Counted from the first letter of the stretch, positions 101-62,816 are shown. The stretch: 64,000 nucleotides of DNA from Rhodocyclaceae bacterium (GCA_013426785.1 JACDZI010000007.1:1-64000); one strand, 5' to 3'. The notes: generated from the sequence alone by a model not told the origin. Made by a program: numbers and translations.

Positions 101-1588
101 TTACTCGAAACGCGTGTCGAGGCCGAATTCGGCCATCTCGGCGGCGCGCAACTGCGCCCGCGCCTTGTTGAGCGTTTCCTGCCATTCGCTTTCGGGGTCG
201 GAATCGGCGACGATGCCGGCGCCCGCCTGCACGTAGATGCGGCCATCTTTCAGCACGGCGGTGCGGATAACGATGGCGAGGTCCATGTCGCCGTTGAAAC
301 CGAGATAGCCCACGCTGCCGGCGTAGATGCCCCGCTTGGTCGGTTCCAGTTCGTCGATGATTTCCATCGCGCGCACTTTCGGCGCACCCGAGACGGTGCC
401 GGCCGGGAAGGTGGCCTTCAGCACCGAGACCGGCCCCTCGTCGTCCTTCAGTTCACCCTCGACGTTGGAGACGATATGCATGACGTGCGAGTAGCGCTCG
501 ATGAGGTAGCTGTCGGTCACTTTCACCGTGCCGATCTTGGCGACGCGACCGACGTCGTTGCGGCCGAGGTCGAGTAGTTGCAGGTGCTCGGCGCGCTCCT
601 TCTGGTCGGCCAGCAGGTCGGCGGCGAGGGCGGCATCTTCGGCTGCGTTGGCGCCGCGCTTGCGCGTGCCGGCGATCGGCCGGGCGGTGACTTTGCGTGT
701 CTCGCCCTCGCCTTCGAGGCGCACCAGGATTTCGGGAGAGGCGCCGACCACCTGGAAATCGCCGAAGTCGAAGAAGAACATGTAGGGCGAGGGATTGAGC
801 GTGCGCAAGGCCCGATACAGCGCAAGCGGGCTGGCGGCGTAGGGCTTGCTCATGCGCTGCGACAGCACTACCTGCATGACGTCGCCGTCGAGGATGTACT
901 GCTTGGCCTTGCGCACCGCCGCCTTGAAGTCCTCTTCCGCGAATTCAAAAGTCGGCGCTGACGGGACGGCACGGGTATCGGTCGGCAGTGGCACCGGCGC
1001 ACGCAGCTTGGCGAGCAGTTCCTTCAGCCTTACCTGCGCATGCCGCCACGCGCCGGGGAATCCGGGCTCGGCGAAGACGACCAGGGTCAGCTTGCCGGAC
1101 AGGTTGTCGACGATGGCGATTTCCTCGGAGAGCAGCAGCAGGATGTCGGGGACGTTGAGCGGGTCGGGTTTTTTGGTGTCGGCCAACTTCGGCTCAATGT
1201 AGCGCACCGTGTCGTAGCCGAAATAGCCGACCAGGCCGCCGCAGAAGCGCGGCAGGCCGGGAATGTCCGGCACCTTGAAGCGCGCCATGAATTCCGAGAC
1301 GAAGGACATCGGGTTGGTGTGCTCGCGGCGTTCGGCGACGCGGTTGCCGGTGAGCAGCAAGATGGTCGAGCCGGTCACGGCGATGCGCGTCGGCGTGGTC
1401 AGGCCGATGAAGGAATAGCGGCCGAAGCGCTCGCCGCCCTGGACGGATTCGAGCAGGTAGGAATGCGGGCCTTCGGCGAGCTTGAGATAGATCGACAGGG
1501 GGGTGTCGAGGTCGGCGAAGGTTTCGAGGGTGACGGGGATGCGGTTGTACCCGGCGATGGCCAGGCGGTCAAATTCGGCTTCTTTCAT
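101..1588 (-). CDS. trpE: Anthranilate synthase component I
   Basis: 495-aa ORF with chorismate-binding signatures (GRNDVGRV, TFPAGTVSGAPKVRAMEIIDELEP, IRTAVLKDGRIYVQAGAGIVADSDPE). Confidence 0.97.
   Translation of the reverse strand: MKEAEFDRLAIAGYNRIPVTLETFADLDTPLSIYLKLAEGPHSYLLESVQGGERFGRYSFIGLTTPTRIAVTGSTILLLTGNRVAERREHTNPMSFVSEFMARFKVPDIPGLPRFCGGLVGYFGYDTVRYIEPKLADTKKPDPLNVPDILLLLSEEIAIVDNLSGKLTLVVFAEPGFPGAWRHAQVRLKELLAKLRAPVPLPTDTRAVPSAPTFEFAEEDFKAAVRKAKQYILDGDVMQVVLSQRMSKPYAASPLALYRALRTLNPSPYMFFFDFGDFQVVGASPEILVRLEGEGETRKVTARPIAGTRKRGANAAEDAALAADLLADQKERAEHLQLLDLGRNDVGRVAKIGTVKVTDSYLIERYSHVMHIVSNVEGELKDDEGPVSVLKATFPAGTVSGAPKVRAMEIIDELEPTKRGIYAGSVGYLGFNGDMDLAIVIRTAVLKDGRIYVQAGAGIVADSDPESEWQETLNKARAQLRAAEMAEFGLDTRFE
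947..970 (+). repeat. 24-bp dispersed element copy (in trpE, antisense to gene)
   Basis: AAAAGTCGGCGCTGACGGGACGGC, 1 mismatch to consensus AAAAGTCGGCGCTGGCRGGACGGC. Confidence 0.9.
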
Positions 1589-2252
1589 GCTGGATCAGGG
1601 TCGTGGCGGCAAGGAGGGTTTCGACTATAGCATCGGCCGCCAGCGCCCGGACGTCCTGCCCCTCGTTGTAGCCGTAGGGCACGAGGAACACCTTGCAGCC
1701 GGCATTTTTGCCGGCGTGGAAGTCGTGCACCGAATCGCCGATCAGCAGCGTGTTGGTGGGCGAGACGCCGAGGCGGCCGCAGGCCCACACCACCGGCATC
1801 GGGTCGGGTTTCGGCTTCGGCAACTGGTCGCCGCTGACCGTCACGCTCATATAGGGCGCCAGCCCGGTGCGTTCGAGCAGCGGCTCGGTGAAGACCTGCG
1901 CCTTGTTAGTAATGACGCCGAGCGGCAAGCCCATGGCCTTGAACATGTTGAGTCCGGCCATCACCCCCGGGAAGGGCTTGGCCGCACGGCCGTTGCACTC
2001 GGCATAGTGCCGCCGGAAACCCGCCAGCGCGTCCGCTGGAGGCGGCGCCGGATCGTCGGCTGCTTCCAGCGTGCCCGCCAGCACGCGTTTGACCAGGTTG
2101 GGAATGCCGCGCCCGACGTAGGCGCGGATGTCCTCGACTGCCACCGGCGAACGGCCGAGGTCGGCGAGCATGCCGTTGGCGGCGGCATGCAGGTCGAGCA
2201 CCGTGTCGAGCAGGGTGCCGTCTAGGTCGAGCAGAACGGCTTTGATGCTCAT
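1569..2252 (-). CDS. gph: Phosphoglycolate phosphatase (HAD family)
   Basis: MSIKAVLLDLDGTLLDT HAD motif, GVITNK, KPKPDPMPV, LLIGDSVHD; overlaps the trpE start; the longer listed ORF is an upstream extension. Confidence 0.92.
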   Translation of the reverse strand: MSIKAVLLDLDGTLLDTVLDLHAAANGMLADLGRSPVAVEDIRAYVGRGIPNLVKRVLAGTLEAADDPAPPPADALAGFRRHYAECNGRAAKPFPGVMAGLNMFKAMGLPLGVITNKAQVFTEPLLERTGLAPYMSVTVSGDQLPKPKPDPMPVVWACGRLGVSPTNTLLIGDSVHDFHAGKNAGCKVFLVPYGYNEGQDVRALAADAIVETLLAATTLIQHERSRI

Positions 2253-2266
2253 TATGGTAACGGGCA

Positions 2267-2959
2267 TCAGACCTTGGCGAGTTCGGCGCGCATTTCGCCG
2301 ATGATCGTGTCGTAGCGGTTGGGGTCGGCCTCGTTGCGCTTGCCGAAGACGGCCGAGCCGGCGACGAAGGTGTCCACGCCGGCACGCGCCACGTCGGCGA
2401 TGTTGGTCGGGCCGACGCCGCCGTCGATTTCGAGGCTGACCTTGAGGCCGCGCTCCTCGATCATCCGGCGCACCTTGCGCGCCTTGTCGAGCACGTAGGG
2501 GATGAACTTCTGGCCGCCAAAGCCGGGGTTCACCGACATCAGCAGCACCATGTCGAGCTTGTCGAGCGTGTATTCGAGGACGTCGAGCGGGGTGGCGGGG
2601 TTGAATACCAGGCCGGGCTTGCAGCCGCACTCGCGGATCAGGCCGATGGTGCGGTCAACGTGTTCGGAGGCTTCCGGGTGGAAGGTGATGTAGGTGGCAC
2701 CGGCCTTGGCGAAGTCGGGGATGATGCGGTCCACCGGCTTGACCATCAGGTGCACATCGATCGGCGCGGTGACGCCATGCTTTTTCAGCGCCTCGCAGAC
2801 CAGCGGGCCGATGGTGAGGTTCGGCACGTAGTGGTTGTCCATTACGTCGAAGTGCACGATGTCGGCCCCGGACGCGAGTACGTTGTCGACTTCCTCGCCG
2901 AGCCGGGCGAAATTGGCGGAGAGGATGGACGGTGCGATACGATAGGTCACGGAGCTCAC
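2267..2959 (-). CDS. rpe: Ribulose-phosphate 3-epimerase
   Basis: [48 protein letters not shown]. Confidence 0.97.
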
Positions 2960-3049
2960 TCCTAGTGGATTAGAATGAGCTAATTCTAGCTGCGCCGCCT
3001 ATCAGCCCCGCTAAGACTTTCTGATAACAGCCATAAGTACCGACCCGCC

Positions 3050-3433
3050 ATGGCCGAAGCGAAAAAACACGAAATTGCAATCGAGGTGGAGACGCAATAT
3101 CTGCCCGAGCAGTCCGAACCCGATGAGGATCGCTATTTCTTCGCCTATAGCATCACGGTGACGAATACTGGTTCGCTGCCCGCCCAGCTGATTTCGCGGC
3201 ACTGGATCATTACCGATGCGGAAGGCAAGGTCGAGGAAGTGCGTGGCTTGGGTGTGGTGGGACAGCAACCGCTCCTGAAACCCGGTGAGTCATTCGAGTA
3301 CAGCAGCGGCTGCCCATTGGCCACGCCGGTAGGCACGATGAAGGGCAGCTACCAGATGGTGGCCGAGGACGGTACCCGCTTCGAAGCGCTGGTCCCCGAG
3401 TTCGTGCTAGCCATGCCCAGGACCCTGCACTGA
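3050..3433 (+). CDS. apaG: ApaG domain protein
   Basis: YFFAYSITVTNTGSLPAQLISRHWIITDAEGKVEEVRGLGVVGQQPLLKPGESFEYSSG is typical ApaG. Confidence 0.95.
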   Translation: MAEAKKHEIAIEVETQYLPEQSEPDEDRYFFAYSITVTNTGSLPAQLISRHWIITDAEGKVEEVRGLGVVGQQPLLKPGESFEYSSGCPLATPVGTMKGSYQMVAEDGTRFEALVPEFVLAMPRTLH

Positions 3434-4117
3434 GCCAATCAGCAGCGCTTGCGCCTCCGCAGCGTTGAGACGTTTCCACGGCAGCGGTATCAGCCCCGGA
3501 ACCCTTGCGCAGTAGTCCGCATAAACCGCGCCGAAGTGTGCGACCAGCTTGCGCTCTTCCAGCCAGGCGCCGATCACGAAATACAGGGTGATGGCCACGG
3601 CGGTCACCAGATACGGCGCATTCATGTCGCGCGTCCACACCAGCACCAGACCCAGTGCATACCAGGGATGGCGTACGTAACGGTGCAGCGGCGAGATGCG
3701 GAGGCCGTCGTGTTCGACCGCATCGGTGCGCCGCTCCAGCAATGGGCGTGTTCCCAGAAACTCGTCCATGTCGTAGGTGCCGGACGCCAGCACGAAACCG
3801 CCCATGGCGGCGAGGGCCAGTCCGTTGGCCAGCCACGCGCCCAAGCCGGTCCATTGCCACAACCAGTCGCCGGGGATGGCGTAAGTGGCCCACAGCAGCG
3901 GCAGCAGCAGCAGCGTGGCGAGGCCGTTGTAGGCGAAGCGGTACCACGGCGCCAAACCGAGCCAGCAGCGGGTGACCCATGCCTTCATCGCCAGCGCGGC
4001 CAGCAGCGAATGCAGCACCGCGTAAGCGATCCAGCCGAGGGCGAGCCAAACAAGATCGCTCAACTGCGGTAATCCGCGTTGATCTTCACATAGTCGTAGC
4101 TGAAGTCGCAGGTCCAC
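3407..4117 (-). CDS. NnrU/isoprenylcysteine methyltransferase-like membrane protein
   Basis: Multi-TM ORF with [17 protein letters not shown] and [25 protein letters not shown] motifs; the 5' end may be over-extended. Confidence 0.7.
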
Positions 4118-5298
4118 ACCGTGGCGCTGGCGCGGCCGCGGCCGAGGTCGACGCGTACTTTGATTTCGGCCGGCTTCATCGCTGCAGCGCCGTCCTCTTC
4201 TCGGTAGCTGAGGGCGCGCCCGCCGTTTTCGGCGACCAATGTGTCACCGAGCCAGACCATGACCTTGGTGTCGTCGAGGTCGGCCAGCGCCGGGTCGATG
4301 TGCCAAGCGTAGCCGATGGCGGCGAGGATGCGGCCGAGGTTCGGGTCGCAGGCGAAGAAGGCGGTCTTGACCAGCGGCGAATGGGCGATGGCGTAGCCGG
4401 CGGCCTTGCATTCTGACACCGAGCGTCCGCCCGCAACGGCGATCTCGATGTATTTCGTTGCGCCCTCGCCGTCGCGCACGATCGCTTGCGCCAGTTCGCA
4501 CGCGACCTCGATCACGGCCTGTCTGTATTCGGCCCAGCCCGGCGCGTCGATGCTGTCGAATTTTGCCGGCCCCTGGCCGGTGGCGATCAGCACGAAGGAA
4601 TCGTTGGTCGAGGTGTCGCCGTCGATGGTGATGCAGTTGAAGGATTCGTCGGCGGCTTCCTTGACCAGGCGATCCAACATCGGCTGGGCGATCGCTGCGT
4701 CGGTGGCCATGAAGCTGAGCATGGTGGCCATGTTGGGACGGATCATGCCGGCGCCCTTGGCGATGCCGGTGATGGTGGCCGCCGTGCCGCCAGCGCCGAC
4801 TTTTCGGCTGGCGGCCTTGGCAACGGTATCCGTGGTCATGATGGCATGCGCGGCCTCATGCCAGCCGTCCGCTTTCAGCGCCGATAGTGCGGCGGGCAGG
4901 CCGGCCTTGAGGCGCTCGACCGGCAGCGGTTCGAGGATCACGCCGGTGGAGAAGGGCAGCACCTGTTCGGCCCGCAGGTCCATCAGTTTCGCCAGCGCGG
5001 CGCAGCTCTGGCGTGCCGTTTCCATGCCGGGTGCGCCGGTGCCGGCGTTGGCGATGCCGGTGTTGATCACCAGTGCGCGGATGTCTTCCTGCTTGAGGTG
5101 GGCGCGGCAGACATGCACCGGCGCGGCGCAGAAGCGGTTTTGGGTGAACACGCCGGCGACGCGGCTGCCGGGTGCCAGTTCGAGTACGGTCAGGTCACGG
5201 CGATTGGCCTTGCGGATGCCTGCTTCGGCGGTGCCGAGGCGGACGCCGGCGACGGGGAAGAGATGGGTGGGGGCGGGGGTGCTGTAGTTGACGGGCAT
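4060..5298 (-). CDS. argJ: Bifunctional glutamate N-acetyltransferase / amino-acid acetyltransferase
   Basis: [25 protein letters not shown] and [20 protein letters not shown] signatures. Confidence 0.96.
4781..4804 (-). repeat. 24-bp dispersed element copy (in argJ)
   Basis: Reverse complement AAAAGTCGGCGCTGGCGGCACGGC, 1 mismatch; identical to the copy at 62533. Confidence 0.9.
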
Positions 5299-5302
5299 GG
5301 GA

Positions 5303-12632: not shown

Positions 12633-12656
12633 AAAAGTCGGCGCTAGCAGGACGGC
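12633..12656 (+). repeat. 24-bp dispersed element copy (intergenic, upstream of tldD)
   Basis: AAAAGTCGGCGCTAGCAGGACGGC, 1 mismatch. Confidence 0.92.
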
Positions 12657-16401: not shown

Positions 16402-16425
16402 AAAAGTCGGCGGTGGCGGGACGGT
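16402..16425 (+). repeat. 24-bp dispersed element copy (between SulP stop and adenosyltransferase start)
   Basis: AAAAGTCGGCGGTGGCGGGACGGT, 2 mismatches. Confidence 0.85.
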
Positions 16426-21404: not shown

Positions 21405-21428
21405 GCCGTCCTGCCAGCGCCGACTTTT
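21405..21428 (-). repeat. 24-bp dispersed element copy (intergenic, upstream of HyfB-like gene)
   Basis: GCCGTCCTGCCAGCGCCGACTTTT, exact reverse complement of consensus. Confidence 0.95.
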
Positions 21429-26560: not shown

Positions 26561-28120
26561 ATGCAACTTTTCGACGAACCGATCGAATTCACCCGCCAGC
26601 CCGGCATTGGCGCACCGGTATGGCAGGGGCGTGCCGTCGATGGCGACGAACTCAAGGATTTCGCCGCCGCAGCGCATCTGGCCGGCGGACGGCTCGCCGC
26701 GCTGTGGGGCAGCGATGAGCGCCTGAGCGGCGGCGGCTTTCGACTGCATTGCGTGTTCGGCCTCAACGAGGGGCATGCTTGCCTGACGCTCGAGTTACCT
26801 GCGAACGATCCGGGCTATCCCGACCTGTCCGGCCTGTTCCCTGCCGCCAACCGCATGCAACGCGCTACCTATGACATGGTCGGCATCGGCCACGATGGCA
26901 CCGACCAGCGCCCCTGGCTGCGTCACGGCGGCTGGCCTGCCGACTGGTTTCCGCTGCGCCACGACGCGGGCGAGGGCGGTGACTTCTCCAACCTGCCGAG
27001 CGATTACGACTTCGTCCAGGTGGGCGGCGAGGGTGCCCACGAGATCCCGGTCGGCCCCATCCACGCCGGCATCATCGAACCGGGCCATTTCCGCTTCTCG
27101 GTGGTGGGCGAGCGCGTGTTGCGCTTTGAATCGCGGCTGGGCTATCAACACCGCGGCGTCGAACGCCGTCTCGCTGGCGCCGACTTTTCCACGGGCGCGA
27201 AAATCCTCGGACGCATCTCCGGCGATGCCACCTGCGCCTATGCCTGGGCCTACGCCGCCGCCATCGAGGCCGCTTGCGGCGTCGAGCCGTCGCCACGTGC
27301 TCTGGCCTTGCGCGCGATCCTGCTCGAACGCGAACGCGTCGCCAACCATCTGGGCGATCTCGGCATGCTCGGCAACGATGCCGCCCTGGCATTCGGGCTG
27401 TCGCAGTTCTTCCGCCTCAAGGAGGAATGGGTGCGCGTCTCGGCGCTACTGTTCGGCCACCGCTTCATGATGGACCGCATCGTGCCGGGTGGTGTCGAGG
27501 CCGACCTCAATGCCGCAGCAGTGAAAGTGCTGAGCGACCAGTGCGATGCCATCGGCCCGGCCGTGAAGGAATTGCATGCCATCTACGATGAACATGCCGG
27601 CCTGCAGGACCGCTACCTGACCACCGGACCGATCGACGCCGCGCTGGCCCGCGAACTGTCGCTCAGCGGCATGGCGGCGCGGGCGACCGGCCTGCTGCTC
27701 GACGGCCGCTGCTACCGGCTCGACTATGCACCGCCGCCTCCCTGGGCAGCGCTGGGCGTGCGCCCGGTCACCGACGAGCGGGGCGATGTGGCCGCACGCG
27801 TGGCGGTACGCTTCGGCGAGATTACCGAATCCCTGCGCTTGATCCGGCAACTGGCGACACAACTGCCGGCTGGCGCAGTGTGCGCCGAGGTCAAGCCGGT
27901 ACCGGGCGCGAGCGGAGTGGGCATCATCGAGGGCTGGCGCGGCGAGGTGCTGGTCGGCGTCAGCATCGGCGCGGATAGCCGGCTGGCGCGCGTGCATCCG
28001 CACGACCCGTCATGGCAACTGTGGCCGGCGCTGGAGCATGCCGTGCCGCGCGACATCGTGCCGGACTTCCCGCTCATCAACAAGTCGTTCAACCTCTCCT
28101 ACGTGGGGCAGGATTTATGA
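26561..28120 (+). CDS. HyfG-like large subunit lacking NiFe ligands (Ehr-type)
   Basis: NuoC/NuoD-like fusion; IPVGPIHAGIIEPGHFRFSVVGERVLRFESRLGYQHRGVE, but RISGD replaces RxCGxC and the C-terminus is FPLINKSFNLSYVGQDL without DPCxxC. Confidence 0.9.
   Translation: MQLFDEPIEFTRQPGIGAPVWQGRAVDGDELKDFAAAAHLAGGRLAALWGSDERLSGGGFRLHCVFGLNEGHACLTLELPANDPGYPDLSGLFPAANRMQRATYDMVGIGHDGTDQRPWLRHGGWPADWFPLRHDAGEGGDFSNLPSDYDFVQVGGEGAHEIPVGPIHAGIIEPGHFRFSVVGERVLRFESRLGYQHRGVERRLAGADFSTGAKILGRISGDATCAYAWAYAAAIEAACGVEPSPRALALRAILLERERVANHLGDLGMLGNDAALAFGLSQFFRLKEEWVRVSALLFGHRFMMDRIVPGGVEADLNAAAVKVLSDQCDAIGPAVKELHAIYDEHAGLQDRYLTTGPIDAALARELSLSGMAARATGLLLDGRCYRLDYAPPPPWAALGVRPVTDERGDVAARVAVRFGEITESLRLIRQLATQLPAGAVCAEVKPVPGASGVGIIEGWRGEVLVGVSIGADSRLARVHPHDPSWQLWPALEHAVPRDIVPDFPLINKSFNLSYVGQDL
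27165..27188 (-). repeat. Possible degenerate 24-bp element copy (in HyfG-like gene)
   Basis: Reverse complement AAAAGTCGGCGCCAGCGAGACGGC, 3 mismatches. Confidence 0.5.
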
Positions 28121-29522: not shown

Positions 29523-29546
29523 AAAAGTCGGCGCTGGCAGGACGGC
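29523..29546 (+). repeat. 24-bp dispersed element copy (fills convergent gene junction)
   Basis: AAAAGTCGGCGCTGGCAGGACGGC, exact consensus. Confidence 0.95.
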
Positions 29547-34835: not shown

Positions 34836-34857
34836 GCTGTCCTGCAGGCCGACTTTT
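34836..34857 (-). repeat. Degenerate 24-bp element copy (upstream of hydrogenase protease gene)
   Basis: Reverse complement AAAAGTCGGC-CTG-CAGGACAGC: two 1-nt deletions, one substitution. Confidence 0.7.
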
Positions 34858-35321: not shown

Positions 35322-35345
35322 GCCGTCCTGCCAGCGCCGACTTTT
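35322..35345 (-). repeat. 24-bp dispersed element copy (between cytochrome and OB-fold genes)
   Basis: GCCGTCCTGCCAGCGCCGACTTTT, exact reverse complement of consensus. Confidence 0.95.
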
Positions 35346-36745: not shown

Positions 36746-36769
36746 AAAAGTCGGCTCTGGCAAGACGGC
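36746..36769 (+). repeat. 24-bp dispersed element copy (between diheme cytochrome and PioB-like genes)
   Basis: AAAAGTCGGCTCTGGCAAGACGGC, 2 mismatches. Confidence 0.85.
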
Positions 36770-41787: not shown

Positions 41788-43134
41788 TCAACGCATGAGT
41801 GACCAGACCAGCCCGAACAGCGTGCAGGCGCCGAATACCGTCATGATGTCGATCCTGTATTTCCACAGCGCGATGAACGACGCGGCCGCGATGGCGACGG
41901 CCAGCAGGTCGGGTGAGCCGGCAAAGGGTGCAGCATGCGTACCCTGCGGCCAGAAGGCATGCCAGGCGAAGAAGACAGCGAGATTGACGATGACGCCGAC
42001 CACGGCGGCGGTAATGGCGGTGAGCGGCGCGGTGAATTTGAGTTCGCCGCGCGTTGCCTCGACCAGCGGGCCGCCGGCGAGGATGAAGAAGAAGGATGGC
42101 AGGAAAGTGAAGAAGGTGGCGACCGTGGCCCCTGCCAGCCCTGCGACGACGGGATCGGCGAATACCGCCTGGCTCACGCCGCCGAGGTAGCCCACCCAGG
42201 TGACCACCATGATCAGCGGTCCCGGCGTGGTTTCGCCCAGCGCCAGGCCATCCATCATCTGCGGGCCGGTGAGCCAGCCGTAGTGTTCCACCGCGCCCTG
42301 GTACACATAGGGCAGCACGGCATAGGCGCCGCCGATGGTGAGGAAGGTGGCCTGGGTGAAGAACTCGCCCATGGCGGTGAGCGTGGGCGAAGCGCCGCTG
42401 GCAAGCATCGCCACTGCCCAGATGGCCAGGAACACCAGTGTGGTGATGATCAGCCTGGACAACGAAAACTTCGCATGTGCGGGTGGCGGGGTATCGTCGT
42501 CGATGATGGCCGGGCCATGGGTCCTGGCCGCAGTGCCATGGCCGGCGCCGCCCGCCTGAAATTTGGCAGCGAGCTTGCCGCCCGCGGCGTTTCCCACGAT
42601 GCCGATCAGCGCTGCCGCCAGCACGATCCAGGGAAAATCGATGCGGAAAAAGAAGATGCCGACGAAGGCCAGCGCGGCGATGCCTGCCAGCACGCCGTTT
42701 TTCACCACGCGGCTGCCAATGCGCCAGGCCGCGAACAGCACCACGGCGACCACGGCGGGTTTGATGCCGTAGAAGATGCCGGCCACCAGCGCAGAGGTGC
42801 CCCAGGCCAGATAGAGGCCGGCCAGCAGCGAGAGCAGCGCGAAGGCCGGCAGGAAGAACAGCACACCTGCCGCCACCGCGCCCCGGATGCCGTGCAGCAG
42901 CCAGCTGATGTAGATGGCGAGCTGGATCGCTTCCGGCCCCGGCAGCAGCATGCAGTAGTTGAGGGCATGCAGATAGCGGTATTCGGAAATCCAGCGTCGC
43001 CGCTCGACCAGTTCCTGTTGCATCAACGCGATCTGCCCGGCCGGTCCGCCGAAGCTGATGAAGCCGAGTTTGAACCAGAAGCGCAGGGCCTCGGCAAAAG
43101 TCGGCGCTGGCGGGACGGCGGGGGCAGCCTGCAT
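41788..43134 (-). CDS. chrA: Chromate transporter (ChrA family, two-domain)
   Basis: FISFGGPAGQIALMQQELVERRRWI and FLTIGGAYAVLPYVYQGAVEHYGWL duplicated ChrA motifs. Confidence 0.93.
   Translation of the reverse strand: MQAAPAVPPAPTFAEALRFWFKLGFISFGGPAGQIALMQQELVERRRWISEYRYLHALNYCMLLPGPEAIQLAIYISWLLHGIRGAVAAGVLFFLPAFALLSLLAGLYLAWGTSALVAGIFYGIKPAVVAVVLFAAWRIGSRVVKNGVLAGIAALAFVGIFFFRIDFPWIVLAAALIGIVGNAAGGKLAAKFQAGGAGHGTAARTHGPAIIDDDTPPPAHAKFSLSRLIITTLVFLAIWAVAMLASGASPTLTAMGEFFTQATFLTIGGAYAVLPYVYQGAVEHYGWLTGPQMMDGLALGETTPGPLIMVVTWVGYLGGVSQAVFADPVVAGLAGATVATFFTFLPSFFFILAGGPLVEATRGELKFTAPLTAITAAVVGVIVNLAVFFAWHAFWPQGTHAAPFAGSPDLLAVAIAAASFIALWKYRIDIMTVFGACTLFGLVWSLMR
43096..43119 (+). repeat. 24-bp dispersed element copy (5' end of chrA, antisense to gene)
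   Basis: AAAAGTCGGCGCTGGCGGGACGGC, exact consensus. Confidence 0.95.
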
Positions 43135-45321: not shown

Positions 45322-45762
45322 ATGGATGAACAGGCTTACCAAGCCACGCGCCAGCAACTCAATCCGCTGCCCTGCGTGTTCGAAAAGGCGCTGTTGTGCC
45401 AGGCGGCGGCATGCGAGGCGGCCCGGCGCCTTTCGCTCGCCGAGCGTGAGATGGTGGCTTGCCGCGAGCCGCTGGCACGCGCGGCCTGCGGCCAGTTGCT
45501 GAGCCTGTTGCGCACCAACTCGGCCTTCGCCCTCAAGATCAAGGATGCCCAGCGCATCCTGCCTCATGCGATGACCATGAAGATCCAGTGTGGCGGGCTG
45601 GTCGGCCTGCGCGACCTGCTCGACCCGGAGGCGCACGCGCCGGATGTCTTGAAACTGGTGCGGCTGGCCCATGCCGAGTACGGCGCTTTCGAAGACCTGC
45701 CGTTTTCGCGCATCGTGCAGGGCGTTGCCCACTGGCAGATCCGCCGGTGGCGGCCTAAATAG
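45322..45762 (+). CDS. Cysteine-containing hypothetical protein
   Basis: 146-aa ORF in array with the preceding genes; C-rich N-terminal half. Confidence 0.65.
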   Translation: MDEQAYQATRQQLNPLPCVFEKALLCQAAACEAARRLSLAEREMVACREPLARAACGQLLSLLRTNSAFALKIKDAQRILPHAMTMKIQCGGLVGLRDLLDPEAHAPDVLKLVRLAHAEYGAFEDLPFSRIVQGVAHWQIRRWRPK

Positions 45763-45781
45763 TCGGCTTCGGCGGCACGGC
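45758..45781 (+). repeat. Degenerate 24-bp element copy (overlaps stop of hypothetical gene, upstream of hyi)
   Basis: AATAGTCGGCTTCGGCGGCACGGC, 5 mismatches, same intergenic context. Confidence 0.5.
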
Positions 45782-46588: not shown

Positions 46589-48084
46589 CACGCATCCACT
46601 CCCACGAACGCGACCAGGATTTTTCCGACGTCGATCGTGCCGCCCTGATCGCCGCGCTGAGCGCTGTTCTGCCGACGAACTCTTTGCTGGCCGACCAGGA
46701 AGATTTGAAACCCTACGAATGCGATGGCCTGTCGGCCTACCGCCGCCTGCCGCTGGCCGTGGTGCTGCCCGAAAACGAGGCGCAGGTGGTCGCCGTGCTG
46801 CAGACCTGCCACCGTTTGGGCGTGCCGGTGGTGCCGCGTGGCGCGGGCACCGGACTGTCCGGCGGCGTGCTGCCAATGGAACACGGCGTGGTGCTGTCGC
46901 TGGCGAAGATGATGCACATCCTCAAGTTTGATCCGCTGGCACGCACGGCCGTCGTGCAGCCGGGTGTGCGCAACCTCGCCATCACCGAGACGGCTGCACC
47001 GCACGGGCTCTACTACGCGCCGGACCCCAGTTCGCAGATCGCCTGCACCATCGGCGGCAACGTGGCGGAAAATGCCGGCGGCGTGCATTGCCTGAAATAC
47101 GGCCTGACGCTGCACAACGTGCTGCGCGTGCGCGGCGTGACCATGGCTGGCGCGATCGTCGAATGCGGCAACCACGCCCTCGACGCGCCGGGCTACGATT
47201 TCCTGGCGCTGATGATCGGTTCCGAGGGCCTGCTTGCCGTCGTCACCGAGGTGACGGTCAAGCTGGTGCCCAAGCCGGAAGTGGCGCGCGTGATCATGGC
47301 CTCGTTCGACGACGTGACCAAGGCCGGCGCGGCGGTGGCGGAAATCATCGCCGCCGGCATCATCCCCGCCGGGCTGGAGATGATGGACAAGTCGGCGACG
47401 GCCGCGGTCGAACCTTTTGTCAAGGCGGGCTACGACCTGAATGCCGCAGCCATCCTGCTGGCCGAATCCGATGGCACGCCGGAGGAGGTGGCAGAGGAAA
47501 TCGCCGCGATGCGCGCCGTGCTGGAGAAAAGCGGCGCCACCGACATTCGCGTGTCGACCAGCGATGCTGAGCGGCTGCGTTTCTGGGCCGGGCGCAAGGC
47601 GGCCTTCCCTGCAGTGGGCCGTATCTCGCCCGACTATTACTGCATGGACGGCACGATTCCGCGGAGACGCCTCGCCGAGATGCTCACCGCCATCGCGCAG
47701 ATGGAAAAGAAGTATGACCTGCGCTGCGCCAATGTCTTTCATGCCGGCGACGGCAACCTGCATCCGCTCATCATGTACGACGCCAACGTGGCGGGCGAAC
47801 TGGAGCGCACCGAAGCCTTCGGCACCGAGATCCTCAAGCTGTCGGTGGAACTCGGCGGCACCATCACCGGCGAGCACGGCGTTGGTTTCGAAAAGCTCGG
47901 TGCCATGTGTGTGCAATTCAATTCCGACGAATTGGCGGTCTTCCATCGCCTCAAGGCCGCCTTCGACCCGCAGGGACTGCTGAATCCCGATAAGGCGGTG
48001 CCGACCCTGCACCGTTGTGCCGAATTCGGCCGCATGCACGTGCATCAGGGCGATCTCAAGTTTCCCGAACTGGAGCGCTTCTGA
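46585..48084 (+). CDS. glcD: Glycolate oxidase subunit GlcD (FAD-linked)
   Basis: VVPRGAGTGLSGGVLP, NVAENAGGVHCLKYG, HAGDGNLHPLI, GTITGEHGVGFEKL. Confidence 0.96.
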   Translation: MTRIHSHERDQDFSDVDRAALIAALSAVLPTNSLLADQEDLKPYECDGLSAYRRLPLAVVLPENEAQVVAVLQTCHRLGVPVVPRGAGTGLSGGVLPMEHGVVLSLAKMMHILKFDPLARTAVVQPGVRNLAITETAAPHGLYYAPDPSSQIACTIGGNVAENAGGVHCLKYGLTLHNVLRVRGVTMAGAIVECGNHALDAPGYDFLALMIGSEGLLAVVTEVTVKLVPKPEVARVIMASFDDVTKAGAAVAEIIAAGIIPAGLEMMDKSATAAVEPFVKAGYDLNAAAILLAESDGTPEEVAEEIAAMRAVLEKSGATDIRVSTSDAERLRFWAGRKAAFPAVGRISPDYYCMDGTIPRRRLAEMLTAIAQMEKKYDLRCANVFHAGDGNLHPLIMYDANVAGELERTEAFGTEILKLSVELGGTITGEHGVGFEKLGAMCVQFNSDELAVFHRLKAAFDPQGLLNPDKAVPTLHRCAEFGRMHVHQGDLKFPELERF

Positions 48085-49124
48085 TGATCGATACTTTCAA
48101 GGCGCGCATTCTTGACGGTAAGCCCTTGTGCATCTGTGGCGGCGGCAGCAAGGATTTTTACGGCAACCCCCCGCAGGGCGAAATCTTGGAGACGAAGGCC
48201 TACGCGGGCATCGTCGCCTACGAACCGACCGAACTGTTCATCACCGCGAAGTGTGGCACCACGCTCGCGGAAATCGAGAGAACGCTCGCCGAACGCGGAC
48301 AGTGCCTCGCCTTCGAGCCGCCGCGCTTTTCTGCCGACTCGACCCTCGGTGGCGTTGTGGCGGCTGGCCTTTCCGGGCCGCGCCGCGCCAGTGCAGGGTC
48401 GTTACGTGACTATGTACTAGGTGTGAAGATCATCGATGGCGAGGCGCGCGAACTGACCTTTGGTGGCCAGGTGATGAAGAACGTCGCCGGCTACGATGTC
48501 GCGCGCCTGATCGCCGGCAGCCTCGGCACGCTGGGCCTGATCACCGAGCTGTCGCTCAAAGTGTTGCCCCGGCCGGTGGCGGAGGCGACGCTGTGCTTCG
48601 AGATGCCGCCAGGTAAAGCGCTTGAGCAACTTAACCGCTGGGCTGGCCAACCACTGCCGATCGTTGCCAGTGCCTGGCAGGATGGCGTGCTGAGCTTGAA
48701 GCTTGCCGGTGCGCGGGCGGCGGTCGAGGCCGCACAGCAAAAACTCGGCGCTGGCGGGACGGCAGCCGAGGGATTTTGGGATGAGTTGCGCGACCAGCGC
48801 CTGCCCTTCTTGGCGACTGAAACGTTGTGGCGCCTGTCGCTGCCATCGGTGGCGCCCATGCTCGACCTGCCCGGCGAAACGCTCATCGAATGGGGTGGAG
48901 CACAGCGCTGGCTACGCTCGGCTGCACCGGCGGACTCCATCCGCGCTGCTGCCGAAAAAGTCGGCGGTAGCGCGACGGCCTATCGTTGTGATACCGGACT
49001 GAAAGCACAGGTCGGTGCTTTTGCGCCCTTGCCGGCACCGCTGCTGAACTTGCACCGCCGCGTCAAGGCCGCCTTCGATCCGCGCGGCATCTTCAACCCC
49101 GGCCGCCTGTATCCCGATTTGTAA
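48084..49124 (+). CDS. glcE: Glycolate oxidase subunit GlcE
   Basis: FSADSTLGGVVAAGLSGPRRASAGSLRDYVLGVKIIDG...FGGQVMKNVAGYDVARL; FNPGRLYPDL end. Confidence 0.95.
   Translation: MIDTFKARILDGKPLCICGGGSKDFYGNPPQGEILETKAYAGIVAYEPTELFITAKCGTTLAEIERTLAERGQCLAFEPPRFSADSTLGGVVAAGLSGPRRASAGSLRDYVLGVKIIDGEARELTFGGQVMKNVAGYDVARLIAGSLGTLGLITELSLKVLPRPVAEATLCFEMPPGKALEQLNRWAGQPLPIVASAWQDGVLSLKLAGARAAVEAAQQKLGAGGTAAEGFWDELRDQRLPFLATETLWRLSLPSVAPMLDLPGETLIEWGGAQRWLRSAAPADSIRAAAEKVGGSATAYRCDTGLKAQVGAFAPLPAPLLNLHRRVKAAFDPRGIFNPGRLYPDL
48740..48763 (+). repeat. 24-bp dispersed element copy (in glcE)
   Basis: AAAACTCGGCGCTGGCGGGACGGC, 1 mismatch. Confidence 0.9.
48956..48979 (+). repeat. Degenerate 24-bp element copy (in glcE)
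   Basis: AAAAGTCGGCGGTAGCGCGACGGC, 3 mismatches. Confidence 0.6.
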
Positions 49125-55356: not shown

Positions 55357-55414
55357 CTTTCGGGCAGGACTCACGGCAAAATCCAATGTTTCGGGCCTTG
55401 CCAGCCTTGAGTTC

Positions 55415-55621: not shown

Positions 55622-55644
55622 GTCTTGAATATCCTTAATAAACC

Positions 55645-55664: not shown

Positions 55665-55800
55665 AGGGTGGGGCGAACATCAAGACGGCGGAGAGGTGCA
55701 GGGAACAGACCGCTTAAGCGGGTACAGAGCCGAACAACAGCAGCACTACTTGAATATCGCTGGCGCGCACTATGCACTGCTTGGCCCGTCAATGCAAGCT

Positions 55801-57009
55801 TTATATGTAAAGATTCAATGCAGCGCTGGATGCGAGCCATTGGCGCTCGTCCACCTGAGCCAGCGCATCAAGGTCGGCGGGCTTGGCAGCCGAGTCATCC
55901 ACCCACTCCCTTAACTGTGGGCCGCCGTTGATCAGGTCGATAGCCCGCCGGTCATGCTCGTATTCGTAGGGGAAGTTGCGCCACAGGGGGTAGTCCGGCA
56001 GCAGGCGGCGCAGCGCCTTGAAGGCGAGCGCCATCAGTCGCCAGGGCTTGAAGGCGGCGTGGTCGTAGTGGGCCGGATCATCAACATGGATTTGCAGGCC
56101 CTGGCACAGCTTGCCGGCATGCTTGTGGAAAGTCGGCTCGAACCAGCAGGGACGCAATTTGCATCCCTGTAGCCACTGCGGCGCCAGCATTTGCATTTCT
56201 GCAAGGAGTGCCGGGGCGTCGATGTCCGGTGCGCCGAACAGCTCCAACGGCCGGGTGGTACCGCGCCCTTCCGAGAGGGTGGTGCCTTCGAGCATCACCG
56301 TGCCGGCGTAGCAACGCGCCATCGACAGGTTGGGCGCATTCGGGCTCGGATTGATCCAGCTCCGTTCGAGCAGCGGCCAGCCGCAGCCGGGCGCGGCATC
56401 GGGTTTCCAGCCTTCCATGTTGATCACTTGGCAGTCGACATCGAGCTTCAGCGTGGCCACGAACCAGCCGGCCAGTTCGCCCAGCGTCAGGCCGTGGCGC
56501 ATCGGCAGCGGGCCGGCGCCAACGAAGCTTTCCCAACCCTCACGCAACGTCAGACCTTCGACGGGCCGCCCAGCCGGGTTGGGCCGGTCAAGAATCCAGA
56601 CCGCCTTGCCGTGCTGCGCAGCGGCTTCAAGCACATAGCGCAGCGTGGTGATAAAGGTGTAGATGCGGCAGCCAAGATCCTGCAGATCCACCAGCAGCAC
56701 GTCGAAGCTGTCCATCATTGCGGCGGTGGGTCGTCTGACAGCGCCATAGAGGCTGAAGATCGGGGTGCCCAGGACCGGATCCACGAAATCGGGCGACTCC
56801 ATCATGTTGTCCTGCTTGTCGCCACGCAGGCCGTGCTGCGGGCCGAAAGCAGCAGTCAGAAGAATCTCCGGCATGGCAGCCAGCGTATCAAGGCTGTGGG
56901 TCAGGTCACGCGTGGTCGAGGCGGGATGGGCGAGCAGGGCGATACGTTTGCCGATGAGTGGCCGACGCAATGCAGACTCGGACAACAAACGGTCGATGCC
57001 GAATTTCAT
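55801..57009 (-). CDS. DUF1343 protein (NamZ exo-beta-N-acetylmuramidase-like)
   Basis: [65 protein letters not shown]. Confidence 0.9.
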
Positions 57010-57578
57010 GGCCAGTGGGAGGGGCGGAAGCCGGGAAGACCGAGGCTCAGGACGAAACCGGCGTGATGATGGAAATCGGGCTGGCCGGGCGGGTGGGCCA
57101 GTGCCCAGTAGCCGTGATCGCCGCCATGCGCTTCAAGGATAACCGCTAAAGCAATCCGTAGCGTGTCCCCCTTCGGTAACTCAGCCTTGGGCAACGTGAC
57201 GGTCTGGGTCAGTTGGTCTTCGCCACGTTCGCAACAGAGAGTGGGTGCAGGAAAAGCGTGTGAAGAGGTTGACGGCAGACGGGTGTCGCAGAAATCGTAG
57301 ACCGCCCACTGGCCCGAGGGCGAAAAATTGAACTCCCGATAGCCGGCCGTGCCGACCGGGCCGAGGAAGACCTCGCAACATGTGGTGCGCCAGAGTGCAT
57401 CGGCCGGGGCCGGCGCGTGGGGCGTCGGTACGAGCAGGTCGAGGTTCAGCCCGTGGATGGCATAGACGATGGTGAGTCCGTCGTGCCCCTTGTCCGTCAG
57501 CGTGACATCAACCTGCTGGTGGAAGCGGACAGGGTTGCCCGCATGGCCGGCCAGCTTGACATGGACCGAATGCGCCAT
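57006..57578 (-). CDS. DOMON-like domain protein
   Basis: LWRTTCCEVFLGPVGTAGYREFNFSPSGQWAVYDF; HHHAGFVLSL end. Confidence 0.75.
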   Translation of the reverse strand: MAHSVHVKLAGHAGNPVRFHQQVDVTLTDKGHDGLTIVYAIHGLNLDLLVPTPHAPAPADALWRTTCCEVFLGPVGTAGYREFNFSPSGQWAVYDFCDTRLPSTSSHAFPAPTLCCERGEDQLTQTVTLPKAELPKGDTLRIALAVILEAHGGDHGYWALAHPPGQPDFHHHAGFVLSLGLPGFRPSHWP

Positions 57579-57585
57579 CGGCGAA

Positions 57586-58428
57586 TCAGGCGGCAAGCAC
57601 CGTCTGGGATTGCTCGCCGAGTCCTTCGACGCCGAGGTGCACGACATCGCCGGCCTTGAGGAACTGCGGCGGCTTCATGCCGAGGCCGACGCCGGGCGGC
57701 GTGCCGGTGCAGATCACATCGCCGGGGTTGAGCGTCATGAACTGGGAGATGTAGCTGATCAGGTGGGCGCAGGGGAAGATCATCTGGTCGGTATTGCTAT
57801 CCTGGCACCGCTCGCCATTGACTTCGAGCCAGACGCGCAGTTTCTGGGGGTCCTCGATTTCATCGGGCGTCACCAGCCAGGGGCCGATCGGCGCGAAGGT
57901 ATCGCAGCCCTTGCCCTTGTCCCAACTGCCGCCGCGGTTCTTCTGGAAATCGCGTTCGGAGACGTCGTGGAAGGTGACATAACCGGCCAGATGGGACAGG
58001 GCCTTGTCCTCGCTGACGTAGCGGGCCTCCTTGCCAATCACCAGGCCCAGTTCGGCTTCCCAGTCGGTTTTGACCGAGGTGTGCGGCAGGCGGATCGGGT
58101 CACAGGGGCCGTTGATCGCGGTGGTCGCCTTCATGAACAGTACCGGCTCGGTGGGAATCGCGGAGCCGGTTTCCAGCGCATGGTCGCGGTAGTTGAGGCC
58201 GACGCCGATGATCTTGCTGATGCCGGTGAAAGGTACGCCGAGGCGTGGCCTGCCCATGACGAGCGGGAGTCTAGCCGGATCGATTTTCTTCAGGCGTTTC
58301 TGCCCGGCCGGGGAAAGCTGTGGCCAGCCGATATCGCTGCAATGGGCCGACAGGTCGCGCAGCTTTCCTTGCGTATCGATCAGGCCGGGTTTTTCGCGCC
58401 CCTTGGCGCCGTAGCGGACGAGTTTCAT
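57586..58428 (-). CDS. Fumarylacetoacetate hydrolase family protein
   Basis: KIIGVGLNYRDHALETG, DWEAELGLVIGKEARYVS, GDVICTGTPPGVGLGMKPPQFLKAGD. Confidence 0.95.
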   Translation of the reverse strand: MKLVRYGAKGREKPGLIDTQGKLRDLSAHCSDIGWPQLSPAGQKRLKKIDPARLPLVMGRPRLGVPFTGISKIIGVGLNYRDHALETGSAIPTEPVLFMKATTAINGPCDPIRLPHTSVKTDWEAELGLVIGKEARYVSEDKALSHLAGYVTFHDVSERDFQKNRGGSWDKGKGCDTFAPIGPWLVTPDEIEDPQKLRVWLEVNGERCQDSNTDQMIFPCAHLISYISQFMTLNPGDVICTGTPPGVGLGMKPPQFLKAGDVVHLGVEGLGEQSQTVLAA

Positions 58429-58441
58429 CTTGCGGGTTTCC

Positions 58442-59908
58442 TTATTTCTTGCCGAGGCCGCCAAGCAGGGCAGCAACCGGACGCAGCGGACGCCGTGGTG
58501 CTGGCGCCGACTTTTCTGAGGATTGATCGCCTACCACCTCTGCCTTGGATTCGTAGGGTTTTGAGAAGTCAAAACCGTCGGCGGCGATCTTCGATTGCTT
58601 CGGCAGCCGGGGCAGGTGCGCGATAGGTGCCGGCAGACGGTCCAGCGGGGCTTTCGGGCCGTGGCCGACGCGGGGTTCGTGCTTGTGGCCGTGGCCTCTG
58701 CTACCCCTGTCGCTGCGCTCACTGCGGCCTTCCTGATCCGGGCGCTCGTTGAGGCCGGCGCTCGAACCGGGCTCGAAACCCGGCACGATCACCTGTTCGA
58801 TCTTGAACTTGGTCAGCCGTTCGATTTCGGCCAGCCGTGGTCTCTCCTCGGGCGCCACCAGCGAGGTGGCCTCGCCGTGCTTGCCGGCACGGCCGGTGCG
58901 GCCGATGCGATGCACATAGTCCTCGGCGACGCGCGGCAGTTCGTAGTTGATGACGTGCGGCAGATCGTCGATGTCCAGACCTCGGGCCGCGACATCAGTG
59001 GCGACCAGCACCCGCGCCGTGCCGGCCTTGAAGGCTTCCAGCGCCTTGGTGCGCTCCTGCTGGGTCTTGTCGCCGTGGATCGCGGTGGCATTGACGCCCT
59101 GTTTTTCGAGCCAGACCGCCAGGCGGCTGGTGCCGAATTTGGTGGCGACGAAGATCAGCACCTGGGTCATGCTCGGGTCGCGCAGCAGTTCGAGCAGCAG
59201 GTAGCGCTTGCGGTCGGCGGCGACCGGATGGACGCGGTGAGTGATGGTTTCGGACACCATGTTGCGGCGGGCGACTTCGATCAGTTGCGGTGCCTTCAGC
59301 ATCGCGTCGGCCAGCCGCTTGATCTCGTCCGAGAAGGTGGCGGAAAACAGCAGGCTCTGACGCGTCGTCGGCAACAGCTTGAGGATGCGCTTGATGTCCG
59401 GGATGAAGCCCATGTCCAGCATGCGGTCGGCTTCGTCGAGCACGAGGAATTCCACCGCGCCGAAGTTGACGGTTTTCTGCTCGACGTGGTCGAGCAGACG
59501 GCCCGGCGTGGCGACGACGATCTCGCGACCTTCCTTCAGTTCGGCGATCTGCGAGCGCATGTCCACGCCGCCATAGATACAGACCGAACGCAGGTCGACG
59601 TATTTGCTGTAGATCTTGACCGATTCGTGCACCTGCATCGCCAGTTCGCGCGTCGGCGTGAGGATCAGCGCCCGCACCGGATGGCGCGCGGGTGAGGGCG
59701 AACTGCTGGCATGGCGGGCGAGCCGGTGCAGTAGCGGCAGGGTGAAGCCCGCCGTCTTGCCGGTGCCGGTCTGCGCACCGCCCATGACGTCGTTGCCGGC
59801 CAGGATGATCGGGATCGCCTGTGCCTGGATCGGCGTGGGTTCGGTATAGCCGACTTCCAGCACGGCCTTGAGGATTTCGGGCGCCAGCCCGAGGTCAGTG
59901 AATTTCAC
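58442..59908 (-). CDS. rhlE: DEAD-box RNA helicase (RhlE family)
   Basis: GGAQTGTGKTAGFTLPLLHRL, LVLDEADRMLDMGF, ATDVAARGLDIDDLPHVINYELP, HRIGRTGRAG; GTG start assumed. Confidence 0.94.
   Translation of the reverse strand: MKFTDLGLAPEILKAVLEVGYTEPTPIQAQAIPIILAGNDVMGGAQTGTGKTAGFTLPLLHRLARHASSSPSPARHPVRALILTPTRELAMQVHESVKIYSKYVDLRSVCIYGGVDMRSQIAELKEGREIVVATPGRLLDHVEQKTVNFGAVEFLVLDEADRMLDMGFIPDIKRILKLLPTTRQSLLFSATFSDEIKRLADAMLKAPQLIEVARRNMVSETITHRVHPVAADRKRYLLLELLRDPSMTQVLIFVATKFGTSRLAVWLEKQGVNATAIHGDKTQQERTKALEAFKAGTARVLVATDVAARGLDIDDLPHVINYELPRVAEDYVHRIGRTGRAGKHGEATSLVAPEERPRLAEIERLTKFKIEQVIVPGFEPGSSAGLNERPDQEGRSERSDRGSRGHGHKHEPRVGHGPKAPLDRLPAPIAHLPRLPKQSKIAADGFDFSKPYESKAEVVGDQSSEKSAPAPRRPLRPVAALLGGLGKK
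58492..58515 (-). repeat. Degenerate 24-bp element copy (3' end of rhlE)
   Basis: Reverse complement AAAAGTCGGCGCCAGCACCACGGC, 4 mismatches. Confidence 0.6.
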
Positions 59909-60081
59909 GCAGCGACTCCGGTTGCGTTGCGCACCCATTGCCCGCAAGGGCGGTGCCGGCTCAGGCGGGGCAACTTATGCTTGGGGATGGCCCGATGTAG
60001 CCGGACCGCATCCAACCGGCAGGATGCGCAGCGATTCTACGGTAAATCAGTGGGAAATGATCCTGCCGTCAGTCGGCGCGC

Positions 60082-60486
60082 TCAGATGACCTTGCCGTCA
60101 GCCTTGGCAGCAGGCAGTGGCTTGCTATCGTCCGAGTGGGAGGTACCGTCCTTCTTGGCTGGCGCGGCTTCTTCGATCGCTACGGGGTTGGCGGCGGCGG
60201 GCTTGTTCTTGTCCGCCTTCTGGAACTGCGGGGTAACGACTTCGATATTGTTTTCCCGCATGTAGGCATCCATGTCTCGCCAGCCGGTGAACACCGCCGC
60301 CTTGAGCGCCTTGGGATTCAACGTGTAGCAATCTTCCAGCGCCCGTCCGCTGTGACGGCAGGCGCTGCCGACAGCACGGCCTTCCGCCTCCCTAGCGGCA
60401 GCGATTTTGGTCGGATCCTCGATACCTATCTGTTCGCAGCCGACGAGAATTACGAGAAAGATTGGCAGTAACAACTTGTTGCGCAA
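60082..60486 (-). CDS. Putative lipoprotein
   Basis: LLLPIFLVILVGCEQ lipobox-like N-terminus; start codon (TTG) uncertain. Confidence 0.5.
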   Translation of the reverse strand: MRNKLLLPIFLVILVGCEQIGIEDPTKIAAAREAEGRAVGSACRHSGRALEDCYTLNPKALKAAVFTGWRDMDAYMRENNIEVVTPQFQKADKNKPAAANPVAIEEAAPAKKDGTSHSDDSKPLPAAKADGKVI

Positions 60487-60789
60487 GGTATTTTGCCTGA
60501 TTGGGTGGCGAACGATGCAAATGCTGTATGGAGTTAACGGCAGCAGCCACTGTTTCTTTAAGTTGCCTACTGCGCTCTTCCTCGGCCAAGCGTTGCACAT
60601 CCGCTGCCGACATCGCTGTATTGGCACGATTTTTCAGCATCAGCCAGAGGATCTCGCCATTGACGAGGATCAGGGCAACCTCGATATAGAGGATGGCCGA
60701 TACCAGTTGCCGCTGGGAATTGTCCGTAAAGAGGCGGAATAACGTGCATCAGGGTAGACTCAAGCCTTCAGAACATACCGGACAGACGC

Positions 60790-62133
60790 ATGAAACATTC
60801 CTTGACCCTCCTGATGACTGCCCTGTGCCTCGTATTTTCCACCACGCCCGGCATGGCAGCACCGGATAAACCCGGCAAGCCAGCGAAACCGGCCAGAGCA
60901 GTGCCGGCGCCACTGCCACCACCGGAAATCGTACTCCGCCACAGCCTGACCGGTGGTGCGCTCGACAGCCTGGCGACGCTGGTAATGGGCTTCAATGATG
61001 AAGAAGCGAAACCGAAAACGGCAGGCGGACGCATCAGCCTGGAGGACGTCACGGGCCTGGCCGACAAGAGTCGCCTGCCACACATTGCGCTGTTCGACCA
61101 GGACGACGTCCAGTTGATGTTTGACACGCGCCCGCGTTTCCTGACCCTCAACCAGGTCATGGAGGCCGGCAAACAGCGGTTTGATGCTAAGGCCTTTTAT
61201 CCGCAGATGATCGATGCGGTCGACGACCTCACCGGCAAGATGCAGGCGCTGCCGCTGGCGCTCTCCCTGCCGGTACTGTTCTACAACAAGGCCACCTTCG
61301 TCAAGGCGAAGCTCGATCCCGAGGTGCCGCCGAAGACATGGTGGGAACTACAGGAGGCGGCAGGGGCGATCCGCGAGACGGGTTCGCGCTGTCCGCTGAC
61401 CAGCTCCCGTTTCGCCTGGGTGCACCTCGAAAACGTGTCGGCCCAGCACGGCGAGCCGCTGGTTACGAAAAACGGCAAGCAGGACCAACTGGCGCTCAAC
61501 AGCTTGGTCAATGTGAAGCACGTTGCCCTGTTGACGAGTTGGCACAAGAGCAAGTACTTCATCTATTCCGGCCCGGGGCGCGAGGGTGACGATCGATTTT
61601 ACAGCGGCGATTGCGCCATGCTGACCGGCGAATCGTCCTTCTATGCCCGGCTTGCCCGCGACAAGCCGGGTTTCCCGGTGGGCGTGGCCCTGCTGCCTTA
61701 TTACGATGACGTGCATGGGGCGCGGCCAACCCATTTACTGCCCGACGGCCCGGCCCTGTGGGTGCTGGCCGGCGACAAAAAACCCGAGCAGCAGGTGATC
61801 GCCCGTTTCATTGCCTTTCTGATGCAGCCGGCGGTACAGCGCGAATGGGTGCGCAGCACCGGCTTCCTGCCGATGACGCCAGCGGCCGTGCAGGCCCTGC
61901 GCGATTCGGGTGGCAACCCGGCGATTCTTGATCAGGCTGAGCGTCGCCTGTCGATGGTGACGCGTGACTCGGCGCGCACCAAATCCGGTCCCGACCGCAG
62001 TCGCGTGCGGGCGATCCTCAACGAGGAACTCGAATTGGTCTGGGGCAACCAGAAGCCGGCCAAGGAAGCCCTCGATACCGCCGTGCTGCGCTCCGGCGCG
62101 ATGAACGTACCTGCTGCCAGCAAGAAAAATTGA
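60790..62133 (+). CDS. Extracellular solute-binding protein family 1 (UgpB-like)
   Basis: Signal peptide; LPLALSLPVLFYNKATF, MLTGESSFYARL, LLPDGPALWVLAGDKKPEQQVIARFIAFLMQPAVQREW. Confidence 0.87.
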   Translation: MKHSLTLLMTALCLVFSTTPGMAAPDKPGKPAKPARAVPAPLPPPEIVLRHSLTGGALDSLATLVMGFNDEEAKPKTAGGRISLEDVTGLADKSRLPHIALFDQDDVQLMFDTRPRFLTLNQVMEAGKQRFDAKAFYPQMIDAVDDLTGKMQALPLALSLPVLFYNKATFVKAKLDPEVPPKTWWELQEAAGAIRETGSRCPLTSSRFAWVHLENVSAQHGEPLVTKNGKQDQLALNSLVNVKHVALLTSWHKSKYFIYSGPGREGDDRFYSGDCAMLTGESSFYARLARDKPGFPVGVALLPYYDDVHGARPTHLLPDGPALWVLAGDKKPEQQVIARFIAFLMQPAVQREWVRSTGFLPMTPAAVQALRDSGGNPAILDQAERRLSMVTRDSARTKSGPDRSRVRAILNEELELVWGNQKPAKEALDTAVLRSGAMNVPAASKKN

Positions 62134-62816
62134 TCTCCTACCCCCGCATCATCGCGCATCGGTGTGGCGGGGCACTGGCAATGGAGAACTCGCTGGCCGG
62201 CCTGGAGGTGGCTGCCCGGCTGGGTTGCATGGCGGTCGAGTTCGATGTCATGTTGACCGCCGATGGCGTGCCGATCCTGATGCATGACGAGACGCTCGAC
62301 CGGACCACGTGCTGCACGGGGCGGGTGGCCGAGCGGAACTTTGCCGACATTCGCGCCGGCGATCCCGCCGTGCCGACGCTCGCCGATGCGATCGCCACCT
62401 GCCGACGCCTCGGGCTGTGGGCGAATATCGAACTCAAACCGGCGGCCGGGCACGAGGAAGAAACCGGCGCTGGCGTAGCTGCCTGGCTAGCGGCGCACTG
62501 GGACGGCCGGGGCGTCATTTCATCTTTCAGCGAAAAGTCGGCGCTGGCGGCACGGCGTCATTTGCCGGATGCCCCCTTCGCCTTGCTCTGCGATGCCTTG
62601 CCAGCGGATTGGCAGGATGCCCGCGCACGCCTCTGCCCAGTGGCGGTACATCTTGATGCTGATCTGGTCGATCCTGCCGTGGCGGCAGCACTGGCCGGTC
62701 GGCCCTGGGTCTGTTACACGGTGAATGAACGTTCCACAGCCGACCATCTGTTTGCGCTGGGGTGTGCCGGAGTGTTTACCGATCGTCCCGACTTGCTGCT
62801 GCCGGCCTTCGCGTAG
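62130..62816 (+). CDS. ugpQ: Glycerophosphodiester phosphodiesterase (UgpQ-like)
   Basis: [55 protein letters not shown]; overlaps the upstream stop. Confidence 0.93.
62533..62556 (+). repeat. 24-bp dispersed element copy (in ugpQ)
   Basis: AAAAGTCGGCGCTGGCGGCACGGC, 1 mismatch; identical to the argJ copy. Confidence 0.9.

Follow-up and report, generated by a model that had tools for sequence, protein, structure and literature searches.

What is the 24-bp sequence that recurs, in both orientations, through a 64-kb stretch of a Rhodocyclaceae genome? The window analyzed here is the whole stretch of 64,000 nucleotides at JACDZI010000007.1:1-64000 of Rhodocyclaceae bacterium assembly GCA_013426785.1. 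An earlier interpretation made from this DNA alone (the sequence-only reading) described a dispersed element, AAAAGTCGGCGCTGGCRGGACGGC, in about 16 copies and offered three explanations: a non-autonomous mobile short repeat, a protein/DNA-binding signal, or an mRNA processing site. A DNA-uptake-sequence explanation was absent from these options. The abundance, boundaries, dialects, conservation, and placement of the element, considered together with the competence genes of its hosts, indicate that it is likely a genome-wide signal of the Rhodocyclaceae that resembles a DNA uptake sequence (DUS).

The element is a bounded unit present in hundreds of copies

The window contains 13 matches to the 24-mer at ≤3 mismatches, whereas 100 dinucleotide-shuffled versions average 0.00. 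The host genome (G000, 3.24 Mb) has 734 copies at the same threshold, 378 forward and 356 reverse, and the reversed control pattern gives 0 matches genome-wide. These counts bear out the extrapolation of the sequence-only reading to hundreds of copies and its observation that both orientations occur. The strand balance in other element-rich genomes is like that of the host. Mismatch counts in a 454-kb sample of the genome are bimodal and run 41, 39, 16, 9, 8, 4, and 4 before they reach background. The sampled contigs were picked among those with exact matches, which makes the copy density slightly high (0.25 versus 0.23 per kb).

Information content ends at position 25, and the flanks add just one purine at that position. 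The element is thus a sharply bounded unit of about 25 bp and no part of a larger repeat. A longer repeat unit was ruled out because the flanks carry no shared information, as first described. The earlier statement that the element lacks strong self-complementarity also held. The folding energies of the two strands are -6.5 and -2.6 kcal/mol, a single copy forms no stable hairpin, and the sequence is non-palindromic and without inverted ends. The single-contig genomes G017, G028, G110, and G114 bear the element or a dialect of it, which excludes an assembly artefact.

Copies concentrate at permissive sites

Gene context was determined for the 454 kb of sampled stretches with a simple home-made gene caller (coding 88.6%). 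Among the 113 copies, 67 are in genes (59%, on either strand), 39 are between genes, and 7 overlap an edge. The intergenic share of the copies is 35-41% compared to 11% of bases, and 33 of the 46 intergenic copies are located ≤60 bp from a gene 3' end, where 18% would be expected. Orientation relative to the adjacent gene is mixed (19 versus 14). Copies on the same strand as the gene prefer one reading frame that encodes KVGAG[GR]TA (26/34). The spacing is more even than random placement (coefficient of variation 0.72 versus 0.98, p = 0.0002). The largest element-free gap in the sample is 28.6 kb (G000:C76:1-28600; L193 and L194) and corresponds to the cluster that encodes the ribosomal proteins, EF-Tu, EF-G, and rpoBC. 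The GC content of this cluster is 0.536 versus about 0.62 on most other contigs.

Copies within genes are conserved at the nucleotide level

Orthologues were compared by protein alignment; DNA-level BLAST showed many indels in variable regions. Most congeners have the copies at identical codons. A glcE-like coding sequence (CDS) at 48084-49124(+) carries a copy at 48740..48763 (+, 1 mismatch), and 15 of 17 genomes in the genus match the element here with ≤6 mismatches. The corresponding numbers are 10/12 for a VWA-domain-like gene and 13/15 for another gene. The glcE-like CDS has a second site at 48956..48979 (+, 3 mismatches) that is found in G000 and G012 only, and the other 15 orthologues align to it without gaps at the protein level. 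Gapless alignment to the element-free orthologue of G005 is also found for the copy at 4781..4804 (-, 1 mismatch), which is read in frame as KVGAGGTA in an argJ-like CDS (4060-5298(-)), and for the copy at 62533..62556 (+, 1 mismatch) within the CDS at 62181-62816(+). The names argJ and glcE are our own interpretation of the sequences, made without a family search. Two further element-free comparisons, at L199 8207-8902 and L200 1199-2578, are likewise gapless. The element in genes often replaces sequence without a change in length.

The between-genome identity is 0.90 for the element versus 0.73 for the flanks (94 pairs), and identity at third codon positions is 0.894 inside the element versus 0.583 outside (194 pairs); pairs within families are not independent, and the significance of the 94-pair comparison is for this reason indicative only. 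The higher third-position identity inside the element shows conservation at the nucleotide level beyond that of the protein.

Location of the copies in the window

The copies were found where the sequence-only reading had located them, with one doubtful case. Four are exact. The copies at 21405..21428 (-) and 35322..35345 (-) are intergenic, the latter with a gene end at 6 bp; 29523..29546 (+) is situated between convergent genes, immediately 3' of a stop codon; and 43096..43119 (+) lies at the start of the CDS at 41788-43134(-) and is common to 5 of 10 orthologues. In addition to the genic copies described above, 947..970 (+, 1 mismatch) is within the CDS at 101-1588(-) and 27165..27188 (-, 3 mismatches) is within the CDS at 26561-28120(+). 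The copies at 12633..12656 (+, 1 mismatch; gene end 6 bp before), 16402..16425 (+, 2 mismatches), and 36746..36769 (+, 2 mismatches; gene end at 7 bp) are intergenic. The more degenerate copies at 58492..58515 (-, 4 mismatches), within the CDS at 58442-59908(-), and at 45758..45781 (+, 5 mismatches) were also recovered. The doubtful case is 34836..34857 (-), which consists of AAAAGTCGGC followed by CTGCAGGACAGC; it is 2 bp short and has no match at ≤7 mismatches.

The element is abundant in a subset of the family and has dialects

The element reaches roughly 100-800 copies in nearly all congeners and in another five genera of the family. Within the genus, copy numbers at ≤3 mismatches range from about 200 to 740 in 18 of 19 genomes, and G005 has 0. 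A scan of 399 family genomes shows the original form to be abundant in genera g1, g2, g9, g62, g70, and g88. The family is identified as Rhodocyclaceae by named records, since those that hold exact copies belong almost exclusively to it (Sulfuritalea, Sulfurisoma, Propionivibrio, Azonexus). Most genera of the family are without an abundant element.

Two other genera, with few matches to the original form, carry shifted forms. The g11 dialect is AAAAGTCAGT, a variable N9 stretch, and then ACGGC, and the g69 dialect is AAAAGTCGACGCTGG, a variable N4, and then ACGGC. The three dialects share the bipartite core AAAAGTC-N12-ACGGC, in which the halves are 12 bp apart and the middle varies. The core pattern occurs 504 times in G000, 300 times in G028 (g11), and 93 times in G086 (g69). 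The counts are 0-9 in the remaining genera of the family except g47 (19 in G064). A search for over-represented 12-mers that might represent dialects in G005, G023, G036, G033, and G168 found no comparable motif at the depth sampled. Outside the family, about 240 genomes of the order contain the core pattern 0-8 times each, which is background apart from a few strays. The resemblance of several strays to the element suggests that it is occasionally transferred. Exact or near copies also form small clusters on contigs C66 and C104 of G097 and in G479, which belongs to another family; both genomes lack the system, and G479 bears copies of both the GGC and AGT dialects. These clusters are probably recently transferred DNA. 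An exact copy is also present in 29 viral contigs from IMG/VR (L234-L262). Several of the viral copies are inside portal-like, terminase-small-subunit-like, and antirepressor-like genes in the same frames as in host genes, and a single gene on contig L258 contains two copies at a distance of 147 bp. The phages that infect these hosts apparently also carry the signal, at a low density.

The dialects follow phylogeny. An RpoB tree of 26 genomes, which leaves out G026 and G079 for want of an RpoB match, places all sampled GGC and GAC genera in one clade (100/100) that also includes the low-copy genera g46 and g47 and the element-free G005. The AGT genus forms a separate clade (100/100). G005 groups with G002 and G017 with moderate support (83/68), and this position makes loss the best explanation for the missing copies; G005 is probably a loss lineage. 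G002 and G017, the probable sisters of G005, have an eroded consensus and few exact copies, as if specificity had relaxed in the lineage.

Competence genes and a model for uptake

Of the genomes checked, 40 of 41 have ComEC and 16 of 17 have DprA; the host genome has both. A minor-pilin operon adjoins ispH in the host and consists of a ComP_DUS-family pilin gene together with FimT-, PilV-, and PilW-like genes. ComP-like pilins of PF16732, the only pilin family compared, are present in 53 of 61 relatives irrespective of the element. ComEC, DprA, and the PF16732 pilin were rejected as discriminating markers because they are present almost everywhere. Element-free G005 keeps ComEC and DprA.

A mechanism can be proposed in which a DNA-binding component of the type IV pilus competence machinery would recognize the bipartite AAAAGTC(GGC/AGT/GAC) plus ACGGC at a fixed spacing, and DNA with the element would be taken up more efficiently. 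Transformation and homologous recombination would lead element-bearing alleles to displace element-free ones. Copies would build up where protein and regulatory constraint permits, by molecular drive and/or selection for self-DNA, and would then stay conserved. A change in receptor preference would move the genome-wide motif to a new dialect, and loss of specificity would cause the copies to decay, which is probably the case in G005.

Several observations weigh against this model. ComEC, DprA, and the PF16732 pilin are equally present in element-free relatives, so these genes allow the uptake explanation without proving it and single out no receptor. The motif, at about 24 bp and fully specified in most genera, is longer than a DUS and has a layout unlike that of the uptake signal sequence (USS). 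Inverted pairs, which commonly serve as terminators in DUS and USS systems, are rare (2 within 150 bp among 113 copies), and inverted-pair terminators were dismissed on this basis. A larger insertion with an exact copy inside it is present in a G010 gene, the element is doubled in tandem in G015, and some sites are in length-variable segments. The G015 and G007 orthologues of the CDS at 48084-49124 and of L148 16417-17448 have tandem or extended copies and nearby length changes, suggesting recombination between or near copies.

Alternative explanations

Of the three explanations first offered, a protein-recognized DNA signal fits best because the copies occur in both orientations and both in and outside genes, the two cores have a fixed spacing, and synonymous positions are conserved. 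A signal of this kind could also act inside the cell as a binding site for chromosome maintenance, similar to Chi, KOPS (FtsK-orienting polar sequences), matS, or a nucleoid-protein site, and be kept by selection at many places. The bipartite motif has the look of a protein-recognized site, and the even spacing and conserved synonymous positions would suit such a role. Chi and KOPS motifs are 8 bp, far shorter than 24 bp, and, unlike Chi or KOPS, the element has no replichore polarity in the closed, single-contig genome G028, where forward-strand copies are spread uniformly over the chromosome (the first half holds 75 of the 153). Absence from G005 and from most genera of the family would be odd for a maintenance site, and this explanation is improbable.

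The other two explanations fit poorly. Copying of a non-autonomous mobile short repeat (REP-/MITE-like; repetitive extragenic palindrome, miniature inverted-repeat transposable element) by a recombinase would account for the bimodal mismatch counts, as well as for the element-carrying insertion in G010 and the tandem double in G015. This origin is very unlikely for an element that has no inverted ends or palindrome, is evenly spaced, is found at the same codon sites in most congeners, and often substitutes for sequence in genes without a length change, so that loci with and without it often align gapless. Dialects with a fixed half-site spacing and a free middle are also unexpected for copied DNA. 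An RNA-level signal, either a transcription terminator or an mRNA processing or 3'-end site, is brought to mind by the intergenic copies near gene 3' ends and by the TTTT at the end of the reverse strand. The mixed orientation relative to the transcript, the majority of copies within genes on either strand, the lack of a stable hairpin in a single copy, and the rarity of inverted pairs leave this idea with hardly any probability; a search of the window for Rfam families found none. The uptake-sequence-like signal remains the preferred explanation.

Significance and relation to known systems

According to PMC7811141, self-specific DNA uptake is confined to two families, the Pasteurellaceae and the Neisseriaceae. 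The Rhodocyclaceae probably represent a third, independently evolved uptake-specificity family of free-living environmental bacteria, with an unusually long, clearly bipartite signal, at least three dialects, and a predicted receptor. Self-specific uptake has been connected with a mucosal lifestyle. A further example among environmental bacteria, if true, would test the host-DNA-competition idea and would provide an independent comparison of molecular drive and selection. It would also help to explain gene flow among Rhodocyclaceae that live in wastewater and sediments and would provide a way to transform members of the family that are difficult to modify. The dialects and the probable loss lineage G005 should make the receptor findable by co-variation. 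Within the incomplete coverage of the literature search, GTCGGCGCTGGC was not found in any paper, and no report linking uptake sequences to the Rhodocyclaceae was found.

Dispersed repeats such as REP elements and bacterial interspersed mosaic elements (BIMEs) resemble the element in being short, present in many copies, and partly intergenic. They are palindromic and mostly intergenic insertions, whereas the element is non-palindromic, mostly coding, and often arises by substitution. Chi and KOPS are also short oriented motifs with hundreds of occurrences genome-wide, but they are 8 bp and replichore-skewed, whereas the element is 24 bp and unpolarized in G028. The Pasteurellaceae USS (AAGTGCGGT type) is closer. 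It is a discontinuous motif with separate conserved parts and a high copy number, it is depleted in constrained genes, a pattern discussed together with molecular drive (PMC7811141), and it has dialect types (PMC12616744). The USS differs in sequence and consists of a 9-bp core plus AT-rich tracts, whereas the element has two sequence-specific cores, of which the right one (ACGGC) is GC-rich. The USS host is gammaproteobacterial and the family that hosts the element is betaproteobacterial. AAAAGTC is similar to the beginning of the extended Haemophilus USS (AAAGTGCGGT), and GCCGTC at the start of the reverse strand recalls the Neisseria DUS; both likenesses are probably coincidence.

The DUS of the Neisseriaceae, recognized by ComP, is a continuous motif of up to about 13 nt with the core CTG (PMC12616744), whereas the element is about 24 bp and bipartite and rarely forms inverted terminator pairs. 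These differences in sequence, length, and layout, and the predicted nature of its role in uptake, place the element as uptake-sequence-like, short of a proven member of the DUS or USS families. The element and the DUS are alike in having hundreds of copies on both strands, in and between genes, at fixed, conserved sites in permissive locations, which for known uptake sequences are in the core genome (PMC2397512), and in having dialects with a conserved core that are congruent with phylogeny (PMC3630211).

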